Shown: positions 48,684 through 59,818 of the stretch, one piece after another
Numbering within the stretch: the first letter of the stretch is position 1
Layout of the letters: each line of letters begins with the position of its first letter
Origin: Bacteroidales bacterium
GTDB taxonomy: Bacteria > Bacteroidota > Bacteroidia > Bacteroidales > Marinilabiliaceae
NCBI GenBank assembly: GCA_015061285.1
Contig: SUWW01000009.1
Location: 1-64,000 of the forward strand
Direction: 5' to 3'
Length of the DNA: 64,000 nt
Notes under the pieces: model-generated
Told to the model about the DNA's origin: nothing
The model's database searches: none
The model's input: the letters and a program-made list of their open reading frames with translations, nothing else
Position numbers and translations under genes: made by a program

Positions 48684-49934
48684 TTACCGCTTTATAATCT
48701 CCACATCGTAAACTCTGATGTCGCGCTTTGGACGATCGCCATCAACCTCAACAGCCGCTATGCGATCCACTACATCCATTCCTGCCGTGACGTAGCCAAA
48801 CACAGTGTAGTCGCCATCAAGATATGGAGCACCGCCAATTGTGGTGTATGCCTCGCGTTGAGCGGCGCTGAAGTGTTTGTGGTACTCCTTTTCTATGTCG
48901 TCGAGGTCCTTATTGGAGAATTTTCGTCCTGAAATGATAAAAAATTGAGAACCGTCTGAACGGTTGCTGGCGTTGTGGTCTTCGGGCAGTTTAGAAGCGC
49001 AGACCGCGCCACGCTTACAGAAAAGACCTTTTGCACGTTCCATTGGCAGCGTGTAGCCCGGACCTTGCCAACCTACAAGGTCGTCTTTCTTAGCATGGCG
49101 ACTATCGGCTGCTCCGCTCTGTATCAGATAGTTAGGAAGCACACGATGGACAAGCAAAGAATCGTAGAAATCGTCACAAACAAGGCGGATAAAATTGTCG
49201 CGGTATGTTGGCGTTTGGTTGTAGAGTGCAATGTTGATATTGCCCATGCTTGTACGTATGCGAAAACCGCTAATCGTCTTGTAGCTCGGATAAACCTTGT
49301 TGCTCTTCAGTCTGAGTGAATAGAGATTCTCGTGGTTCTCGCCACAATTTTTAGCCAGGTTGCTAATTATTTTGCTGCTAATCACGCGCTTATCTTTGTC
49401 GGCAATGCCACGCAAGTTGCCCGCTTCATCGAAAATTGCAGAGCCAATGGCAAGGTCGGTTTGCAAACCATCGTCGGTAATGTTTATGGTGGTCTTGTTT
49501 ATGTTATTACGCTTATAATCAAGCGTATGCAGTGTGTCTGCGGTGCTAATTATGGCGGTGTCGATAGGCACGATAGCATCTTTCTGACGGCGAGCCACAC
49601 GCAGCGCCACCAAACCTTCGTCGAGGTCAACGGCAACGAAACCAAACACGTTGTATGCCTGACGATTTTTCATCGTATTTATCTTGGCAGAGAATGCGCC
49701 CTTTATCCAGGCAAGAGGCGTAACTACAACATCTTTAGATATATATACACCTTGTGCTTCGGCAATTTTCTGCCCGTAGAAATCGTACGACGTTATGCGT
49801 ACCATGTTGTCGATATTTCGAGCATAATACGTAGGCTTAGCAGTGGTTGTGCTCGCTTTAGTTTTTGTTGCTTTCTCTTCGGAACAACCTGCTATGCAGA
49901 TGATTATCGTAAGTATGTATAGGAGCTTTATCAT
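48684..49934 (-). CDS. Lipoprotein cyclophilin fused to a degenerate trypsin-like domain
   Basis: 416 residues. Lipobox C-I-A-G-C (Cys17). Residues about 40-210 resemble a trypsin/DegP fold: G-V-Y-I-S-K-D-V-V-V-T-P-L-A-W-I-K-G-A stands where proteases have V-V-T-x-x-H-V, D-L-D-E-G-L-V-A-L-R-V matches the Asp-strand, and A-I-G-S-A-I-F-D-E-A-G-N-L-R-G-I matches the Ser loop. The catalytic His is gone, so it is probably inactive. Residues about 220-416 are a cyclophilin peptidyl-prolyl isomerase (V-H-R-V-L-P-N-Y-L-I-Q-S-G, Y-T-V-F-G-Y-V). Extracytoplasmic folding factor or binding protein. Confidence 0.82.
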   Translation of the reverse strand: MIKLLYILTIIICIAGCSEEKATKTKASTTTAKPTYYARNIDNMVRITSYDFYGQKIAEAQGVYISKDVVVTPLAWIKGAFSAKINTMKNRQAYNVFGFVAVDLDEGLVALRVARRQKDAIVPIDTAIISTADTLHTLDYKRNNINKTTINITDDGLQTDLAIGSAIFDEAGNLRGIADKDKRVISSKIISNLAKNCGENHENLYSLRLKSNKVYPSYKTISGFRIRTSMGNINIALYNQTPTYRDNFIRLVCDDFYDSLLVHRVLPNYLIQSGAADSRHAKKDDLVGWQGPGYTLPMERAKGLFCKRGAVCASKLPEDHNASNRSDGSQFFIISGRKFSNKDLDDIEKEYHKHFSAAQREAYTTIGGAPYLDGDYTVFGYVTAGMDVVDRIAAVEVDGDRPKRDIRVYDVEIIKR

Positions 49935-50141: not shown

Positions 50142-50945
50142 CTATTTCTCAATCACCTCAATGCGAATGATTTTCACGTCCTCCAATGGGCGTTCGTTTT
50201 TGTCGGTCTTTTGCTTATTTATGCGTTGAACTACATCGATACCACTTGTAACTTGTCCAAACACAGTGTATTCGTTGTCGAGTTCGGGAGTGCCACCAAT
50301 GGTGGTGTAGGCTTCGCGTTGCTCGGGCGTAAACTCCTTGTGGTCCGATATGGAGTACTCAAAATCCATTTTGTCGCGAATCTCCTTGGCGAGGGCGTTG
50401 TATGCCACCTTGTCGGTTGCTTTTAGCTCTGCAAGACGCTCTTTATTAGGTAGATAGTAGAGCTTGCGCAGCTGCTTTTTTATAGGAATATTTATCGATT
50501 TCTCAATCTTATCGAGAATGCTGTCGGGATATACTTTGCCGCAAACGATGTAAAACTGCGATATGTCGCTCGTTTTCAGCATATTGATTTTATCGGGCTG
50601 ACGTGGTGCACAGAGAGCACCACGCTTATGAAAGTGCTTCTTGGTGAATTCGGAATCGATGTTAACAGCTTCGTCGCCATAGCCAATATGTTTGCCTGCT
50701 GGGGCATTGCGCGAATCGCTCGAACCGCCTTGAATGACGAAATCGCGCACCGAACGATAGAAAAGCGTACCATTGAAATGTCCAGCACGAGCAAGGCGCA
50801 CAAACTCGTTGCGATGGCGCGGCGTGTCGTCGAAAAGTTCCGCACGTATATCTCCTTTATTCGTATGTATAACTACGCTATAGGTCTGCGCCATACTTGA
50901 CGCAAAAAGGGTAAAAACGACGAGCGATGCAAACAACTTTTTCAT
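50142..50945 (-). CDS. Secreted cyclophilin-type peptidyl-prolyl isomerase
   Basis: 267 residues with signal peptide (ending S-M-A). Core motifs F-Y-R-S-V-R-D-F-V-I-Q-G-G near residue 62 and S-Q-F-Y-I-V near 128, then an insertion of about 75 charged residues before Y-T-T-I-G-G and Y-T-V-F-G-Q. The usual F-H-R is F-Y-R here. Follows the next cyclophilin gene by 9 bp, so the two are co-transcribed. Acts on periplasmic protein folding. Confidence 0.92.
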   Translation of the reverse strand: MKKLFASLVVFTLFASSMAQTYSVVIHTNKGDIRAELFDDTPRHRNEFVRLARAGHFNGTLFYRSVRDFVIQGGSSDSRNAPAGKHIGYGDEAVNIDSEFTKKHFHKRGALCAPRQPDKINMLKTSDISQFYIVCGKVYPDSILDKIEKSINIPIKKQLRKLYYLPNKERLAELKATDKVAYNALAKEIRDKMDFEYSISDHKEFTPEQREAYTTIGGTPELDNEYTVFGQVTSGIDVVQRINKQKTDKNERPLEDVKIIRIEVIEK

Positions 50946-50954
50946 AACACTACC

Positions 50955-51785
50955 CTATTCGTCAATACTATTGCTTACGGTCATACTAAAACGTACGTCG
51001 TCAACTGGTCGCTGAGTGTTGATATTCACCATCACATGAGCTATCGAATCTACCACGTCCATACCACGCACAACCTGACCAAACACCGTATAGCCACCAT
51101 CGAGATGAGGAGCACCACCTTCGCGCTTGTATACCTCGCGCACTTCATCCGGGTAGTGAAATTCGCCCGACTCCTTCACGCGTGCTTCTATCTCGCCCAT
51201 AGCCGTAATTTGCAGATTGACAAGCTGTTCTTGCATACCATGCTTTTGGTAGTAAGCAAGTGAATCTTGATATTTGGGTTGTATTTCGTAGAAGATTTTC
51301 TGACGCAACTTCTGCATATGCATCTCTTCAGCTTCATTCACTTCGTAGTCGGCAAGAGGTCCATTGCCTTGCACAATATAGAATTGCGAGCCCGACGATT
51401 TTCGCTCGGGATTGCTACTGTCGCCATTGCGAGCAGCTGCCACGGCTCCTCGTCTATGAAAATGCTTAGGGAATAGAATTTCGGCATCAATTTTTGAGCC
51501 TATTTCGTTGTGACCAAGTTCGTCGTAGGCTCCAGCGTTACGCGAATCGGGGTCACCACCTTGTATCATAAATCCATTTATAACTCGATGGAATAGCAAA
51601 GAATCATACTGACCAGAGGCCGCAAGATTGGCAAAGTTGCGACTATGATTGGGCGTATCGTCAAAGAGTTCAATAACTATATCGCCATACGTAGTATGTA
51701 TAGTAACGTATTTATAGTCAGCACCTTGCGAACAAGATATAAGCATAAGTGCAAATATCGATATTGCAAACAGGATTTTTTTCAT
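50955..51785 (-). CDS. Lipoprotein cyclophilin-type peptidyl-prolyl isomerase
   Basis: 276 residues. Lipobox L-I-S-C (Cys18). Motifs F-H-R-V-I-N-G-F-M-I-Q-G-G-D near residue 62 and G-S-Q-F-Y-I-V-Q-G near 133, with a long helical insertion (about residues 145-220) before Y-T-V-F-G-Q-V. First of the two-gene operon with 50142-50945. The complete F-H-R and Q-x-F motifs suggest an active isomerase. Confidence 0.93.
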   Translation of the reverse strand: MKKILFAISIFALMLISCSQGADYKYVTIHTTYGDIVIELFDDTPNHSRNFANLAASGQYDSLLFHRVINGFMIQGGDPDSRNAGAYDELGHNEIGSKIDAEILFPKHFHRRGAVAAARNGDSSNPERKSSGSQFYIVQGNGPLADYEVNEAEEMHMQKLRQKIFYEIQPKYQDSLAYYQKHGMQEQLVNLQITAMGEIEARVKESGEFHYPDEVREVYKREGGAPHLDGGYTVFGQVVRGMDVVDSIAHVMVNINTQRPVDDVRFSMTVSNSIDE

Positions 51786-53491: not shown

Positions 53492-56400
53492 ATGAATAAA
53501 CACATTTCTAAATTTTTGCTCAGCCTCACTATGGTGCTGGGGCTGACTTTAGGGCTTAGTCCGACGGCGTATGCGAGTGAGGCCGTAACGGAGGTTGATA
53601 ATATCGATGAGTTCGTTAATGCTGTCGCGAATGGCGGTTATGTGAAGCTGGTAGAGAATTTTAACGGTTCTATTGATGTTTTGAGATTTGAGAAAGAAAC
53701 AACAATAGACTTGAATGGACATACGATGTCTGTAAAAGTTGGTAATGTTTCTCATTTTTATATCAGAGCTCATCTAACGATAAAAGATGGATCGTCAGAT
53801 GGAAATGGAACACTTATTTTCGATAACTACTCAGCTCCGTTCTTAATATATGATATTGGCTCGTTGACGTTAGAAAGCGGCACTCTGTCTTTTACTGACA
53901 GCAGGTCGTATGGTATTGATGTATATCAAGGTCCATTTACGATGACGGGTGGTAAAATCGAAAGTGCTGGTTATTCTATCTGGCGTGATGGTGCGAATGT
54001 TTCGATTAGCGGAGGTACAATCATTGGAAACTTCCAAAAAAATTCCGGAGAAATAAACATTACTGGAGGCAAATTCAGCTTCGACCCATCGGACTTGCTG
54101 AAAAACGGGTATACCGCATATAAGAGCGGAGACTTTTGGGAAGTGAAAGCTCCGCCTGTTGCCAGCGTAACCATTGGAGATGCTACAACAGAATACGCAT
54201 CACTTACCGATGCCCTCGCAGCATGTGAAGGTGGTAGTACGCTGACGCTTCTCAAAGATGTTGAGCATACTGGTGACATTACTGTTTCGAGTGATGCGAC
54301 GCTGACTATCCCCGAAGGCGTGACACTGACGGTTAAGGGTGATGCTTCTACAGCAAAAGATGAATATTCTTATGATTCTTGTGGTGCTTTCACCATAGGA
54401 GAAAACTGTACTCTGCATATCACAGGAGGCGGAACGTTAGAGGTAATCGGCGTTGATGGATACCATAATGGTGATGGTGAAAATGCCATTTACCTTAGTG
54501 GTACGCTTATAGTAGAAAGTTCTACGGTTGTTAATGCCACTGGCGGCAGAAAAACAGACGGTAGCAGTGGTATGGGTGGTTTTGGCATTCATGGTAGTGG
54601 GAACAATTTGCATAATGCTACGGGATCTAACGTTATTGTTGACGGCGGAATTGTGAATGCTACTGCTGGTTGGGGCGACGGCGCACCAGGACTCGGTTAT
54701 TGCAACATCATAGTTAAGAGTGGTATATTAGCAACAGGCGCCGCCGACGAATATGGCAAAGCTTTCTATTCGTCAACAGTTTCCTCTGGCAAAATCTATC
54801 AAAGCGACGACGGCAGTAGTTGGGCTGAGGTTTCCGGCGAACCTTCCGCAAAATATGTCAAGGTCGTGGTAGCCCACACCCACAACTTCATCTATTCTGC
54901 CGAAGGTGCGACCATCACGGCTACCTGTAGTGAGGCGGATTGTCCGCTGACAGATAGCAAAACGACGCTGACAATAGAAGCTCCAGAGATGACCGTCAGC
55001 GGCTCGGCGAAGAACCCCGCAGCTACACTTACGGGGCTCGATGACTTCAATAGAGCCACCGGTCTTGCTGTCGATGCTACCGCCATCAGGTACGTCTACT
55101 ACAGCAACAGCGATGACTCGTTCGAAACGGAAAACGCTCCATTCAGTGGAGGTCAACACACCGCCAAAATTACGGTCGAGGAGCAGACGGCAAGCGTGGA
55201 TTATGAAATTATCGGTTACACTGATTTCGCCTTGTCGAGCAACAATGATGAGTGGGGAACTGTGGAGATTTTGAATAGTGGAAAGTCAATTCAGTGGTCA
55301 TCATATGGTAAATCAGATTGGGACAATAGCGCAACTCAAAATACGTTTGATGGCATTACATTGGAGACAAGTAGTGCGGGCAATCCTGAATGGAACGATT
55401 GGGGGTGGAGCTTCAGCAGCGGTGCTAAAATCAAGTTTATTTCCGATGGAGAACCTTTCAGAAAAATAAGAATAAATGGCGAATATGTTTCGTCTGTTAC
55501 TCCAGGGAATGGATGGGTTTTCCTTGCGATTAATGGCAACTATCAAGGAGATTTAGTATGGGAAGGAAATTCCAACGAAGTTACCTTGCCTGATTGCCAA
55601 ATGTCTGCAACCCCGATCATTTTCACTCTTGGCGAGTCGAATATTGTTGCGTATAATACTATGAGGGCTTCCGTTCTCCCTGGCACTGAGGTGACTGTGA
55701 AGGCTACACCTGTCGAGGGCTACGTCTTGAAGAGATGGAGTGAAGGTGTTGAAGTGAAGGACAATGACGACGGCACCTACACGCTGACGATGCCAAAGAC
55801 GGATCGCCTTGACCTCGAAGCCTACTTCGAGAATGCTCACACCCACAACTTCATCTATTCTGCCGAAGGTGCTACAATAACGGCCACATGCAGTGCTGAC
55901 GAATGCAACTTGACTGAAAGCAAGGCTACGCTGACCATTGCAGCGCCGACAAACCTCGCATATAATGGCACAGCAAAGGCTGCAACGGTAGAGAATAACA
56001 TACCTGACGTTACTACTGCGCCGAGCATCGTCTACACAAAAGACGGCACTACGATAGATGCGGAAAACGTCGCAGAGCCTGGAACATATACTGCTACCGT
56101 TACGTTGGCAGACGTAAAAACTGGTGAGAATACCACAGGTGAAGTCACTGCCTCGGTAGAGTTCACCATCACCAACAATCCTATGCCCGTGGCACTCACT
56201 TCGTCTGGCAATGGCGGAACGGCTTTGCTGCTGAACGATTCATACAACGAGGTCAACTCACTGAACAAAAAAGTGGGCGAGAAATTCATTTTGCGCGTCA
56301 ACAACGACGATGGGTACAACTTTGCTATCTCGTTCAACACAGACGACGTAAGCACAACGGAATTCACCTCCGATGAATATAAAGCTTACATCGAATACGC

Positions 56401-59400
56401 TACCGAGAACAATATTTATGTGCCTGCTAACACGGTTTTGCTTTGGGGCACTATGCCATACATTGAAAGTGGAAACCTAACGGCAACAGTCACTTTCGCA
56501 AAGACGAAAACCTTCACCGTGTTGTATCAGCCTCAAGACGGGGCAAATCCTGATGTGGTATTTTGCAAGATTGCCAAAACAGAGGGGGCTAACGAGGTTG
56601 TTGGCTATACACCAATGAATCATGGAGCTACCATGGGCAATACGGTGGTATGGTCGTTGGCGATGACTTCAGCCTTTGACCCGACAAAGGTTGCTTTTGT
56701 TGCAGCTAACACTCCTTCGACCGATGAAGAGAAGATTGCCTTGATGACAAATATTGAAAATGTGGCTTTGAGCACCGCCATTGTCAGTCAGAATGTGGAA
56801 TGGACAGATGTTTCAAGCGGCAAATATGCCATCATCGGCGGTAATGCCAAAGTAGTAGTTGCGTCATTTGTGTCAGACGCAAACAATATCACTACCTATA
56901 AAGACAATACGCTCTCCGAAGCCGAATCGGGCGATGGTGTGACGTATCAGTTTGCAGTGTGCAAAACAGATGAAAGCGGCGTAGTAACCGAAGCGGGTAC
57001 TGTCAAAGTCCCAGCAAACACCTTAGTAAAAGACGGATATGATTTTGCTGGTTGGAGAGGATTTGAAGGCACAGCCTCAGAGCAGACGGAGAAAATCTAC
57101 AGTGCTGGTGACGAAATCACTATCAGTGAAAACACCATACTGAATGCCATCTGGAACCGCAGAAACTTCACCATCGCGTTGGATCTGAACGGAGGTACGG
57201 GCAGCAGCAGTGTCAATCCCGTAGCATACGGCACGACTCTGACAATTGCGGCTAATCCTACAAGAAAAGGCTATGCCTTCGATGGTTGGACTGTTGGCGA
57301 GGCTGTCACAGAGAACGGCATATACTTTGCCAAGAGTTCTGCATTTGACCTCAGTACGCCTATCACCAATAATCTAAAACTGACGGCACAGTGGAAGCAC
57401 GTGCACAACTACACATGCTATAAAATCAGCGCCTTCGGTAGCCAATTGGAAAAATATAAGAAGTATGAATCATCCCTTCATATTGCGGTATGCGGCTGCG
57501 ACGATGTTGAGGTGGAATCGCACTCATTCGGTGCTAACGGCAAGTGCGCCTGTGGCTTAACAGATCCGTCAATACCTACGACGGTGACGCTCGATGTCTC
57601 TTACGGGCAGTGGTCAAACGGCACATACTCCGAGAGAATGTTGGAATTCCCTCAGGAGGCGAAGAAGAATCAGGAGGTTTCCATTGATGCTCCGCACAAC
57701 TGGGGTAACCTACAATTCTCCAAGTGGCAGTACAGCACTAACAACGGTGCTTCATGGTACGATCTGACGGCATACGAAATAGTGTCGTTCATCATTCCTT
57801 GCAGCATGAAGGTGCGCGCTCTCTACGTCAATCCTGTTACGTCACCAACGTTGGAACTGAGTGCCCGTCAATATGATGACCATGCGGAAGTCAATGGTAA
57901 GACCTATACGATGGACAATATCCTGTTCCAAATGAACTACAAGCTCCCCGACGGCTACAGCTTTGTGGACGGCGGCATCAAGCTCGGCGACAACAACGGC
58001 ATTTCATATTATAATATTCAGGAAGTAAAAGTGTCGTACGATAATGAATGCAAGGGCATAATTGCTGGTATGGGGGCCGCACTGGGAGCAGTGAGCTTCT
58101 TTACCAGTGGAGGATGGGATGCCATCACATCATTCAATGATGTCGCAAAACACATGAATGATAAAGCTACCACATACAATTATGTTGAAACCGAGGAGAA
58201 TGTCTTGAACAAAATGGATGCAACGCAATTAGCGAAATGTATGTATAAAGGCACGCCAATTAACGTTGAAAAATATTCTCCAATATACTGGGTTGCCAAT
58301 GCAAAAACCAAGAGCATGAGCGGCTCAATGGCTACGCTGCCACCGCTGCGTTTCGCCCAGAAGAACAATGGCAACCACTATATTTATGGTATCGGCTGGA
58401 TGACATTCAAGACAAGAAGTGGAGCAATCTATACTATTTATACCGACGCGCTTGCCGCAACTATTAATAATATTCCTACCAAATCTGTCAAGAAGGCAGC
58501 ACCAATTAATATTGGTACGGTTGGATATGATAACGAATCAGAAGAAGGTAAGCTCGATATGAGCCTCGTCTTTGCCCCAGAAACACAATTGAATGTCTAT
58601 GTTGACGGTGAGTGGTCGGCTGACCTTTCTGGCAGCTACGGTTTCGGCGACAAGGCCACCATCAGTGCTCCAGAAGTGAGCGGCAAGACCTTCTCATATT
58701 GGGAAGCCGACGGACGACCAGTGAGCAGCAGCAATCCGCTGACGCTGACAATGAACGCCCACACCACACTCCGCGCTGTGTATGATGGTAGCGCAGTGAG
58801 TGCCAAAGTAGGCTTCACCTCCATTACTCGCACCAACGACAAGATTTCGTTCCAAGCCATTGCCGATGCGCAGGCAACAGCCGTAGGTATCATCTATAGC
58901 ACAACCGCCACTGGCGATGCATTGACTCTCAATGGTGAAGGCGTGATACAGGCGGCTGCCGAGCGCCTCACCGACGCCACCACCACAATGCCTGTCAGTG
59001 TGCTTGATGACAACAACTGCTGGATGCTGAAAATCGCCCCAGAAGACGAGAACACCATCTATCATGCTCGTGTTTATGCTATTATCGATGGCAACACAAT
59101 CTTCAGCGATGTACGCGACGTGAAGTTTGCCGATCTACAGAGCGGTATTATGAGCATTGCTAACTTAGACGGCTTCGAGGAGGGTATCGACGAGGCTCTG
59201 ACAGAGTTGCTGAAGAGCGGTGAGGCTGTAGCTCGTTACAGCGTAACCGTTAGCGGCACCGAACTCGATGAGACAGAAGCTAATATGTGGAGCATCCAAC
59301 CTGAAGGTGGCGCAGCTTCGGGAGAGACTGTCACCATCAGTTACAACGGCACCCGCAAGGTGAAGAGCCTGACGAACGACGATGTCAACCCGATATGGAA

Positions 59401-59818
59401 CGCCGAGACAAAGGAGGCCACCTTCACAATGCCCGACTACAACGTAGAACTAAAGGTTGTCTACTACACGCAGGAAGAAACTGACCAAGCAGCCGCTGAT
59501 GCTGTAGTTGCGTTGATTGACGCGCTTCCAACAGAAGTTGCAACAACCGACGAGGCAGCAATCACCGCAGCAAGAACAGCCTACGACGCTCTGACCGAGG
59601 CTCAAAAGGCTAAAGTTTCAGCCGAAGAGTTTGCAAAACTGACTGCTGCGGAATCGGCTCTTGCAGCAATAAACGAAAAACCGACTCCTGTTGTTAACAT
59701 AAACGCCGACAACAAACAAACTGATGTCTGGCACGACCTCAGCGGTCGTCGCCTCCAAGGCAAACCAACAACGCCGGGACTTTACATCAACAACAACCAA
59801 AAGGTTTTAGTGAAGTAG
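53492..59818 (+). CDS. Giant secreted repeat protein, probable surface adhesin
   Basis: 2108 residues. Signal peptide 1-28 (A-Y-A). Residues about 35-460 are G/S/T-rich beta-helix-like repeats. The segment H-T-H-N-F-I-Y-S-A-E-G occurs at residues 462 and 783, with near-identical DNA. Residues about 1170-1310 hold Listeria-Bacteroides-type repeats (G-Y-A-F-D-G-W). About 1310-1370 is Cys-rich. A segment at 1997-2067 resembles Gram-positive three-helix repeats (A-A-R-T-A-Y-D-A-L-T). The tail D-L-S-G-R-R-L-Q-G-K followed by P-G-L-Y-I is typical of Bacteroidales secreted proteins. No enzymatic motif seen. Confidence 0.85.
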   Translation: MNKHISKFLLSLTMVLGLTLGLSPTAYASEAVTEVDNIDEFVNAVANGGYVKLVENFNGSIDVLRFEKETTIDLNGHTMSVKVGNVSHFYIRAHLTIKDGSSDGNGTLIFDNYSAPFLIYDIGSLTLESGTLSFTDSRSYGIDVYQGPFTMTGGKIESAGYSIWRDGANVSISGGTIIGNFQKNSGEINITGGKFSFDPSDLLKNGYTAYKSGDFWEVKAPPVASVTIGDATTEYASLTDALAACEGGSTLTLLKDVEHTGDITVSSDATLTIPEGVTLTVKGDASTAKDEYSYDSCGAFTIGENCTLHITGGGTLEVIGVDGYHNGDGENAIYLSGTLIVESSTVVNATGGRKTDGSSGMGGFGIHGSGNNLHNATGSNVIVDGGIVNATAGWGDGAPGLGYCNIIVKSGILATGAADEYGKAFYSSTVSSGKIYQSDDGSSWAEVSGEPSAKYVKVVVAHTHNFIYSAEGATITATCSEADCPLTDSKTTLTIEAPEMTVSGSAKNPAATLTGLDDFNRATGLAVDATAIRYVYYSNSDDSFETENAPFSGGQHTAKITVEEQTASVDYEIIGYTDFALSSNNDEWGTVEILNSGKSIQWSSYGKSDWDNSATQNTFDGITLETSSAGNPEWNDWGWSFSSGAKIKFISDGEPFRKIRINGEYVSSVTPGNGWVFLAINGNYQGDLVWEGNSNEVTLPDCQMSATPIIFTLGESNIVAYNTMRASVLPGTEVTVKATPVEGYVLKRWSEGVEVKDNDDGTYTLTMPKTDRLDLEAYFENAHTHNFIYSAEGATITATCSADECNLTESKATLTIAAPTNLAYNGTAKAATVENNIPDVTTAPSIVYTKDGTTIDAENVAEPGTYTATVTLADVKTGENTTGEVTASVEFTITNNPMPVALTSSGNGGTALLLNDSYNEVNSLNKKVGEKFILRVNNDDGYNFAISFNTDDVSTTEFTSDEYKAYIEYATENNIYVPANTVLLWGTMPYIESGNLTATVTFAKTKTFTVLYQPQDGANPDVVFCKIAKTEGANEVVGYTPMNHGATMGNTVVWSLAMTSAFDPTKVAFVAANTPSTDEEKIALMTNIENVALSTAIVSQNVEWTDVSSGKYAIIGGNAKVVVASFVSDANNITTYKDNTLSEAESGDGVTYQFAVCKTDESGVVTEAGTVKVPANTLVKDGYDFAGWRGFEGTASEQTEKIYSAGDEITISENTILNAIWNRRNFTIALDLNGGTGSSSVNPVAYGTTLTIAANPTRKGYAFDGWTVGEAVTENGIYFAKSSAFDLSTPITNNLKLTAQWKHVHNYTCYKISAFGSQLEKYKKYESSLHIAVCGCDDVEVESHSFGANGKCACGLTDPSIPTTVTLDVSYGQWSNGTYSERMLEFPQEAKKNQEVSIDAPHNWGNLQFSKWQYSTNNGASWYDLTAYEIVSFIIPCSMKVRALYVNPVTSPTLELSARQYDDHAEVNGKTYTMDNILFQMNYKLPDGYSFVDGGIKLGDNNGISYYNIQEVKVSYDNECKGIIAGMGAALGAVSFFTSGGWDAITSFNDVAKHMNDKATTYNYVETEENVLNKMDATQLAKCMYKGTPINVEKYSPIYWVANAKTKSMSGSMATLPPLRFAQKNNGNHYIYGIGWMTFKTRSGAIYTIYTDALAATINNIPTKSVKKAAPINIGTVGYDNESEEGKLDMSLVFAPETQLNVYVDGEWSADLSGSYGFGDKATISAPEVSGKTFSYWEADGRPVSSSNPLTLTMNAHTTLRAVYDGSAVSAKVGFTSITRTNDKISFQAIADAQATAVGIIYSTTATGDALTLNGEGVIQAAAERLTDATTTMPVSVLDDNNCWMLKIAPEDENTIYHARVYAIIDGNTIFSDVRDVKFADLQSGIMSIANLDGFEEGIDEALTELLKSGEAVARYSVTVSGTELDETEANMWSIQPEGGAASGETVTISYNGTRKVKSLTNDDVNPIWNAETKEATFTMPDYNVELKVVYYTQEETDQAAADAVVALIDALPTEVATTDEAAITAARTAYDALTEAQKAKVSAEEFAKLTAAESALAAINEKPTPVVNINADNKQTDVWHDLSGRRLQGKPTTPGLYINNNQKVLVK

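Follow-up and report, generated by a model that had tools for sequence, protein, structure and literature searches.

A Bacteroidales lipoprotein that joins a degenerate HtrA-type protease domain to a cyclophilin

Domains of the HtrA fold can be retained after catalysis is lost, as in the HtrA pseudoproteases of magnetotactic bacteria, where MamO, a degenerate HtrA homologue, promotes proteolysis by MamE and binds metal (PMC4794232). The S1C domain of RsgI9 is described as protease-like and able to bind cellulose (PMC12203970). Bacterial cyclophilins with large additions to the PPIase domain are also on record, namely the AquaCyps (PMC4898713). Here we describe a gene that joins a degenerate trypsin-like domain of the S1C (HtrA) type to a complete cyclophilin in a single lipoprotein, in a window of 64,000 nucleotides (the whole stretch of DNA analysed) from a Bacteroidales genome of 3.55 Mb. 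Each domain belongs by homology to a known family, but their combination, a dead HtrA domain together with a cyclophilin, seems not to have been described: no account of such a fusion turned up in the literature searched, which covered a minority of subscription papers, in agreement with the preliminary description, which knew of no protein of this layout.

The open reading frame occupies exactly positions 48684–49934 on the minus strand and encodes 416 amino acids, a layout that recurs in full-length homologues; the closest public record is a sheep-rumen metagenome-assembled genome, at 94% identity. The protein begins with a lipoprotein signal peptide (residues 1–17, 49884–49934) that ends in ...IICIAGC17, with IAGC17 as lipobox by sequence and column count, and the lipobox cysteine is present in 50 of 50 aligned members. 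A flexible stretch (residues ~18–35) separates Cys17 from the trypsin-like domain, which profile comparisons place at residues ~36–205 (49320–49829), within the somewhat wider limits of 30–215 first proposed for it. A conserved interdomain linker of about LYSLRLKSNKVYPSYKTIS follows (residues 206–223, 49266–49319), and the cyclophilin (residues 224–412, 48699–49265) completes the protein. The PF00160 match, the lipobox and the family profiles together bear out the earlier proposal of a trypsin-like half and a cyclophilin in one lipoprotein, and we regard this anatomy of a pseudoprotease–cyclophilin fusion as close to certain. In the homologue alignment, read by eye, residues after the lipobox cysteine vary freely and no conserved surface-export signal of the kind found in Bacteroidetes lipoproteins is seen behind it, which favours a lipoprotein that faces the periplasm, with the outer membrane as the most likely site of its anchor.

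Taken singly, the window sequence matched no trypsin model in Pfam, so that a family of homologues was required to establish the fold of the N-domain. A profile of 28 aligned N-domains from homologues in relatives, compared with PDB sequences, gave the RsgI9 S1C domain (7sjy) as best match (E 1.5e-11), then the serine protease Jep (9s74, E 9e-5) and DegP-like proteases. With a wider profile of 18 more diverse rows the RsgI9 match rose to E 8.7e-17, matches spanned positions 26–197 of 219, and DegP-like proteases, HtrA2, SplE and a mycobacterial membrane-associated serine protease were found at E below 0.004; all matches at E <= 1 were trypsin-like proteases or relatives of that fold. Unaided, 8 of the 28 members matched Pfam Trypsin_2 (best 2e-5) and 11 matched the MarP family model. 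When the N-domain profile was aligned by hhalign with eight intact S1C-type proteases, the genome's own DegP included, the probability was 98.8% (E 1.1e-15, 189 columns), against a best of 3.2% for 30 column-shuffled control profiles. A KilA-N match of the N-domain in Pfam (E 0.014, under the cut-off) was rejected, since the family profile gives only proteases.

Profile alignment equates VVTPLAWIKGA with the loop of the catalytic histidine (xTNxHVVxGA), DLDEGLVALRV with the aspartate strand (D-LALLKV) and GSAIFDEAGNLRGI with the segment after the serine (SGGPLFDxxGxxxGI); these are the three motifs from which a trypsin-like strand order had been read, and they proved to be the right ones. Structure prediction, proposed earlier as the check, was of less help. 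AlphaFold, run from only four sequences, reached a pLDDT of 33 with the full-length protein and of 45 with the N-domain, and although Foldseek with this low-confidence N-domain model did return trypsin-like folds at the top (RsgI9 S1C, Deg9, Deg5 and DegS), the TM scores were ~0.3; the fold assignment therefore rests on sequence profiles. That the likeness to trypsin is due to chance, the N-domain having another beta-rich fold, could be argued from the poor models and from the missing Pfam match of the single sequence, but with family profiles that reach E 8.7e-17 and recover PA-clan relatives only, and with shuffled controls that fail, we consider it extremely improbable. By its profiles the N-domain thus descends from the chymotrypsin fold of the PA clan, with the HtrA/S1C proteases as its nearest group, and the pseudoprotease reading survives, at the level of sequence profiles, the first condition set for its refutation, that of an unrelated fold.

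All three residues of the catalytic triad are lost in the window protein. In the alignment columns the histidine is replaced by Ala75 (49710–49712), the aspartate by Gly107 (49614–49616) and the serine by Ile163 (49446–49448), so that the loss of the histidine noticed at first sight extends to its two partners. A census of 78 cyclophilin-fused members from three families found no intact triad (0/78); one member is cut off before the His column. The His column holds Ser in 39 and Asp in 18, otherwise E, A, N, R, T, K or G, and His itself in two members, each with Asn at the Asp column and without the serine; the Asp column is divided between D (38), N (36) and G (4); and the Ser column holds 18 different residues, with S in nine members and never together with His. 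Gly164, directly after the Ser column, is invariant in the 50 aligned members, and the GNSGG oxyanion motif is lost in the fused members.

It is conceivable that the N-domain remains an active protease that uses other residues, for example the Ser or Asp that stands at the His column in 57 of the 78 members, and the aspartate is retained at its own column in 38. We rate this as very improbable, because the diversity at the Ser column leaves no invariant nucleophile and the oxyanion motif is gone. More distant fused members with an intact domain were also considered as candidates and rejected on the same count of 0/78, and the pseudoprotease reading thereby survived the comparison with homologues of the same fusion that had been put forward as its refutation. 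A profile search of 396 genomes of the class recovered separate secreted proteases in Bacteroidia (E down to 1e-27) that retain H-D-S; the loss therefore belongs to the fused clade and not to one genome. The closest intact relatives of the dead domain are S1C-like proteases of ~330–480 amino acids from other Bacteroidia (L102–L106, L132), which carry uncharacterised C-terminal parts.

The cyclophilin half matches PF00160 with E 9.3e-29 over residues 224–412, covering profile positions 2–158 of 159, and is complete, as the preliminary description had it; after the N-domain it is the sole Pfam match in the protein, and no PDZ domain was found. Among 50 aligned members the catalytic equivalents are R at Arg55 and Q at Gln63 in every case, and F or Y at Phe113. 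In CypA numbering we take Arg55, Gln63, Phe113 and Leu122 to be kept as R264, Q272, F332 and L372, and Trp121 and His126 to be replaced by Y371 and Y376; the Trp121 position is Tyr or His in nearly all of the 50. By analogy with known cyclophilins, the conserved Arg/Gln/Phe-Tyr set makes isomerase activity likely and the replacement of Trp121 makes cyclosporin sensitivity doubtful.

Both halves are under purifying selection. When the window is compared with its 94% relative (L001), the N-domain gives a dN/dS of 0.062 and the cyclophilin one of 0.037; a second close pair gives 0.21 and 0.04, respectively, and most other pairs are saturated. Conservation is much weaker in the N-domain than in the cyclophilin, over long times the N-domain drifts faster, and the best-kept part of the N-terminal half is the linker, with a mean commonest-residue fraction of 0.68 as compared with 0.36–0.64 in the N-domain. 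Column by column, the N-domain showed no group of strongly conserved residues such as a binding site would leave, and no conserved His/Cys/acidic cluster.

Within the host's family, 53 of 55 genomes carry the fusion; in another Bacteroidales family it occurs in ~40 of the 60 genomes sampled, and in a third family in two of three. It was not seen in other families among 393 sampled Bacteroidales genomes, nor among the best class-level loci read from 396 genomes of the class, and one query of viral contigs found no relative. In an unrooted tree of 77 domains the fused domains form one group, by one change (SH-aLRT 86), apart from both the intact proteases and a second set of degenerate domains. 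Since the tree is unrooted, a single origin of the fusion is the simplest reading rather than a proof. Two genomes of one genus in the host's family, each of ~3 Mb (L151/G048 and L152/G056), have the first two cyclophilins of the locus described below but not the fusion; one of these genomes is a single contig. The fusion is thus dispensable there, and as natural losses the two genomes should be useful for comparison.

In the genomes read, the fusion gene is usually the third of a tandem trio, after two other exported cyclophilin genes. In the window these are, on the same minus strand, a cyclophilin lipoprotein (50955–51785) and an exported cyclophilin with a Sec-type signal (50142–50945), both identified by Pfam and by conserved order, which for the second gene was followed in L076, L070 and L097–L100. 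The trio is conserved in at least three Bacteroidales families. Bacteroidales without the fusion have a single short cyclophilin that gives the best match to the C-terminal half of the fusion protein and that, in seven of eight neighbourhoods, adjoins a gene that we take, by eye from its sequence, to be pheS; in L076 and L099 the trio, too, has pheS nearby. These neighbours suggest that an ancestral pheS-linked cyclophilin acquired the S1C domain and was joined by two sister genes. A different route, in which a separate protease beside the single cyclophilin was later fused to it, was not seen in the eight neighbourhoods, the neighbour being pheS in seven. A scan for promoters and terminators gave nothing above chance. 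Downstream, on the same strand, lies a gene of the uncharacterised nucleotidyltransferase family PF14907 (47469–48629), which was not seen beside the trio in the other genomes read, and 53492–59818 on the plus strand encodes a 2108-residue exported protein rich in repeats.

What might a dead protease domain contribute to a prolyl isomerase? A former HtrA/S1C domain, its triad lost, may have been retained as a binding module, which a conserved linker joins to a cyclophilin predicted to be catalytically competent. The module would bind unfolded or extended segments of envelope proteins, much as the former S1C domain bound substrate, or else a partner protein, and would in this way deliver prolyl-containing clients to the membrane-anchored isomerase; other clients, or free ones, would be left to the two sister cyclophilins. 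On this view the grip on extended polypeptides would have outlived the ability to cut them, and the isomerase would act on whatever the module holds. The holdase or client-recruiting function first suggested for the protein is in this sense plausible. Against it speak the weak conservation of the N-domain with no marked cluster of conserved residues, the two genomes that do without the gene and the low confidence of the AlphaFold models. Taken by itself, the step in which the dead domain recruits clients or partners to the isomerase is one we hold tentatively, at somewhat short of even. The statement as a whole, of a lipoprotein on the periplasmic side in which a dead S1C binding module recruits clients to a competent cyclophilin, we consider evenly balanced between right and wrong.

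Two other roles for the domain have to be set beside client recruitment. The protein could be a regulatory pseudoenzyme whose dead S1C domain docks on an active HtrA, such as the cell's own DegP, and switches or targets it while the cyclophilin works on the same clients. In oligomeric HtrAs, like pairs with like, and the genome encodes a DegP-like protease with a GNSGG motif (L084) that could serve as such a partner; a precedent exists in MamO: MamE proteolysis requires it, but does not require the triad of MamO itself (PMC4794232). However, the gene shows no linkage to a protease, its neighbours in the trio being cyclophilins and, in some genomes, pheS, and we judge this role unlikely. Much the same weight, again on the unlikely side, we give to a domain that serves solely as an anchor or ligand module, binding glycan, peptidoglycan or metal through the S1C fold and fixing the cyclophilin in place with no handling of clients. 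The RsgI9 S1C domain, the nearest relative with a solved structure, has been described as able to bind cellulose (PMC12203970) and MamO binds metal (PMC4794232), yet the N-domain lacks a visible conserved His/Cys/acidic cluster, and the lipid anchor already fixes the protein.

To our knowledge, the periplasmic folding machinery of Bacteroidales is little studied. At least two Bacteroidales families carry the fusion as a regular part of their gene content, and it is no curiosity of a single genome. It shows clearly a protease fold that was kept for a non-cutting use and that can be set beside intact relatives from its own class, and it points to a three-gene cyclophilin unit in the Bacteroidales envelope. 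It may even represent a novel type of envelope folding factor that is common across the order: an HtrA-type domain that no longer cuts would receive clients or regulate a protease, would be covalently linked to a prolyl isomerase, and would form with the two sister cyclophilins a periplasmic unit dedicated to folding. We lean against this broader proposal.

Compared with known systems, the N-domain is by profile comparison the same domain, over its whole length, as that of the S1C proteases (HtrA/DegP, Trypsin_2 PF13365) and of RsgI9 (7sjy), and the motifs round the three catalytic positions align; unlike S1C proteases, the window family has no triad (0/78) and no PDZ domain, is fused to a cyclophilin and is a lipoprotein. 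With exported bacterial cyclophilins such as PpiA it shares a complete PF00160 domain and the catalytic Arg/Gln/Phe-Tyr set, and it differs from them by its long N-terminal pseudoprotease and its usual place as third of a tandem trio; relative to CypA, Trp121 is Tyr or His and His126 is Tyr in the fusion family. MamO resembles the fusion in keeping an HtrA-fold domain after catalysis was lost, but it comes from a different lineage, carries no isomerase and has a biomineralisation and metal-binding role (PMC4794232). The AquaCyps belong to marine Alphaproteobacteria and differ in that their additions are described as extensions and insertions and not as a trypsin-like domain (PMC4898713). A similar design occurs in proteins of other Bacteroidales families (L046–L053, L055–L057) in which a His-less Trypsin_2 domain is likewise followed, in the same order, by a second domain, here TPR repeats instead of a cyclophilin, as confirmed by Pfam in those of the exported proteins that were checked. 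The TPR-fused and cyclophilin-fused domains occupy separate places in the tree, which argues for apparently independent losses of catalysis, and dead trypsin domains thus seem to have been reused more than once in Bacteroidales.
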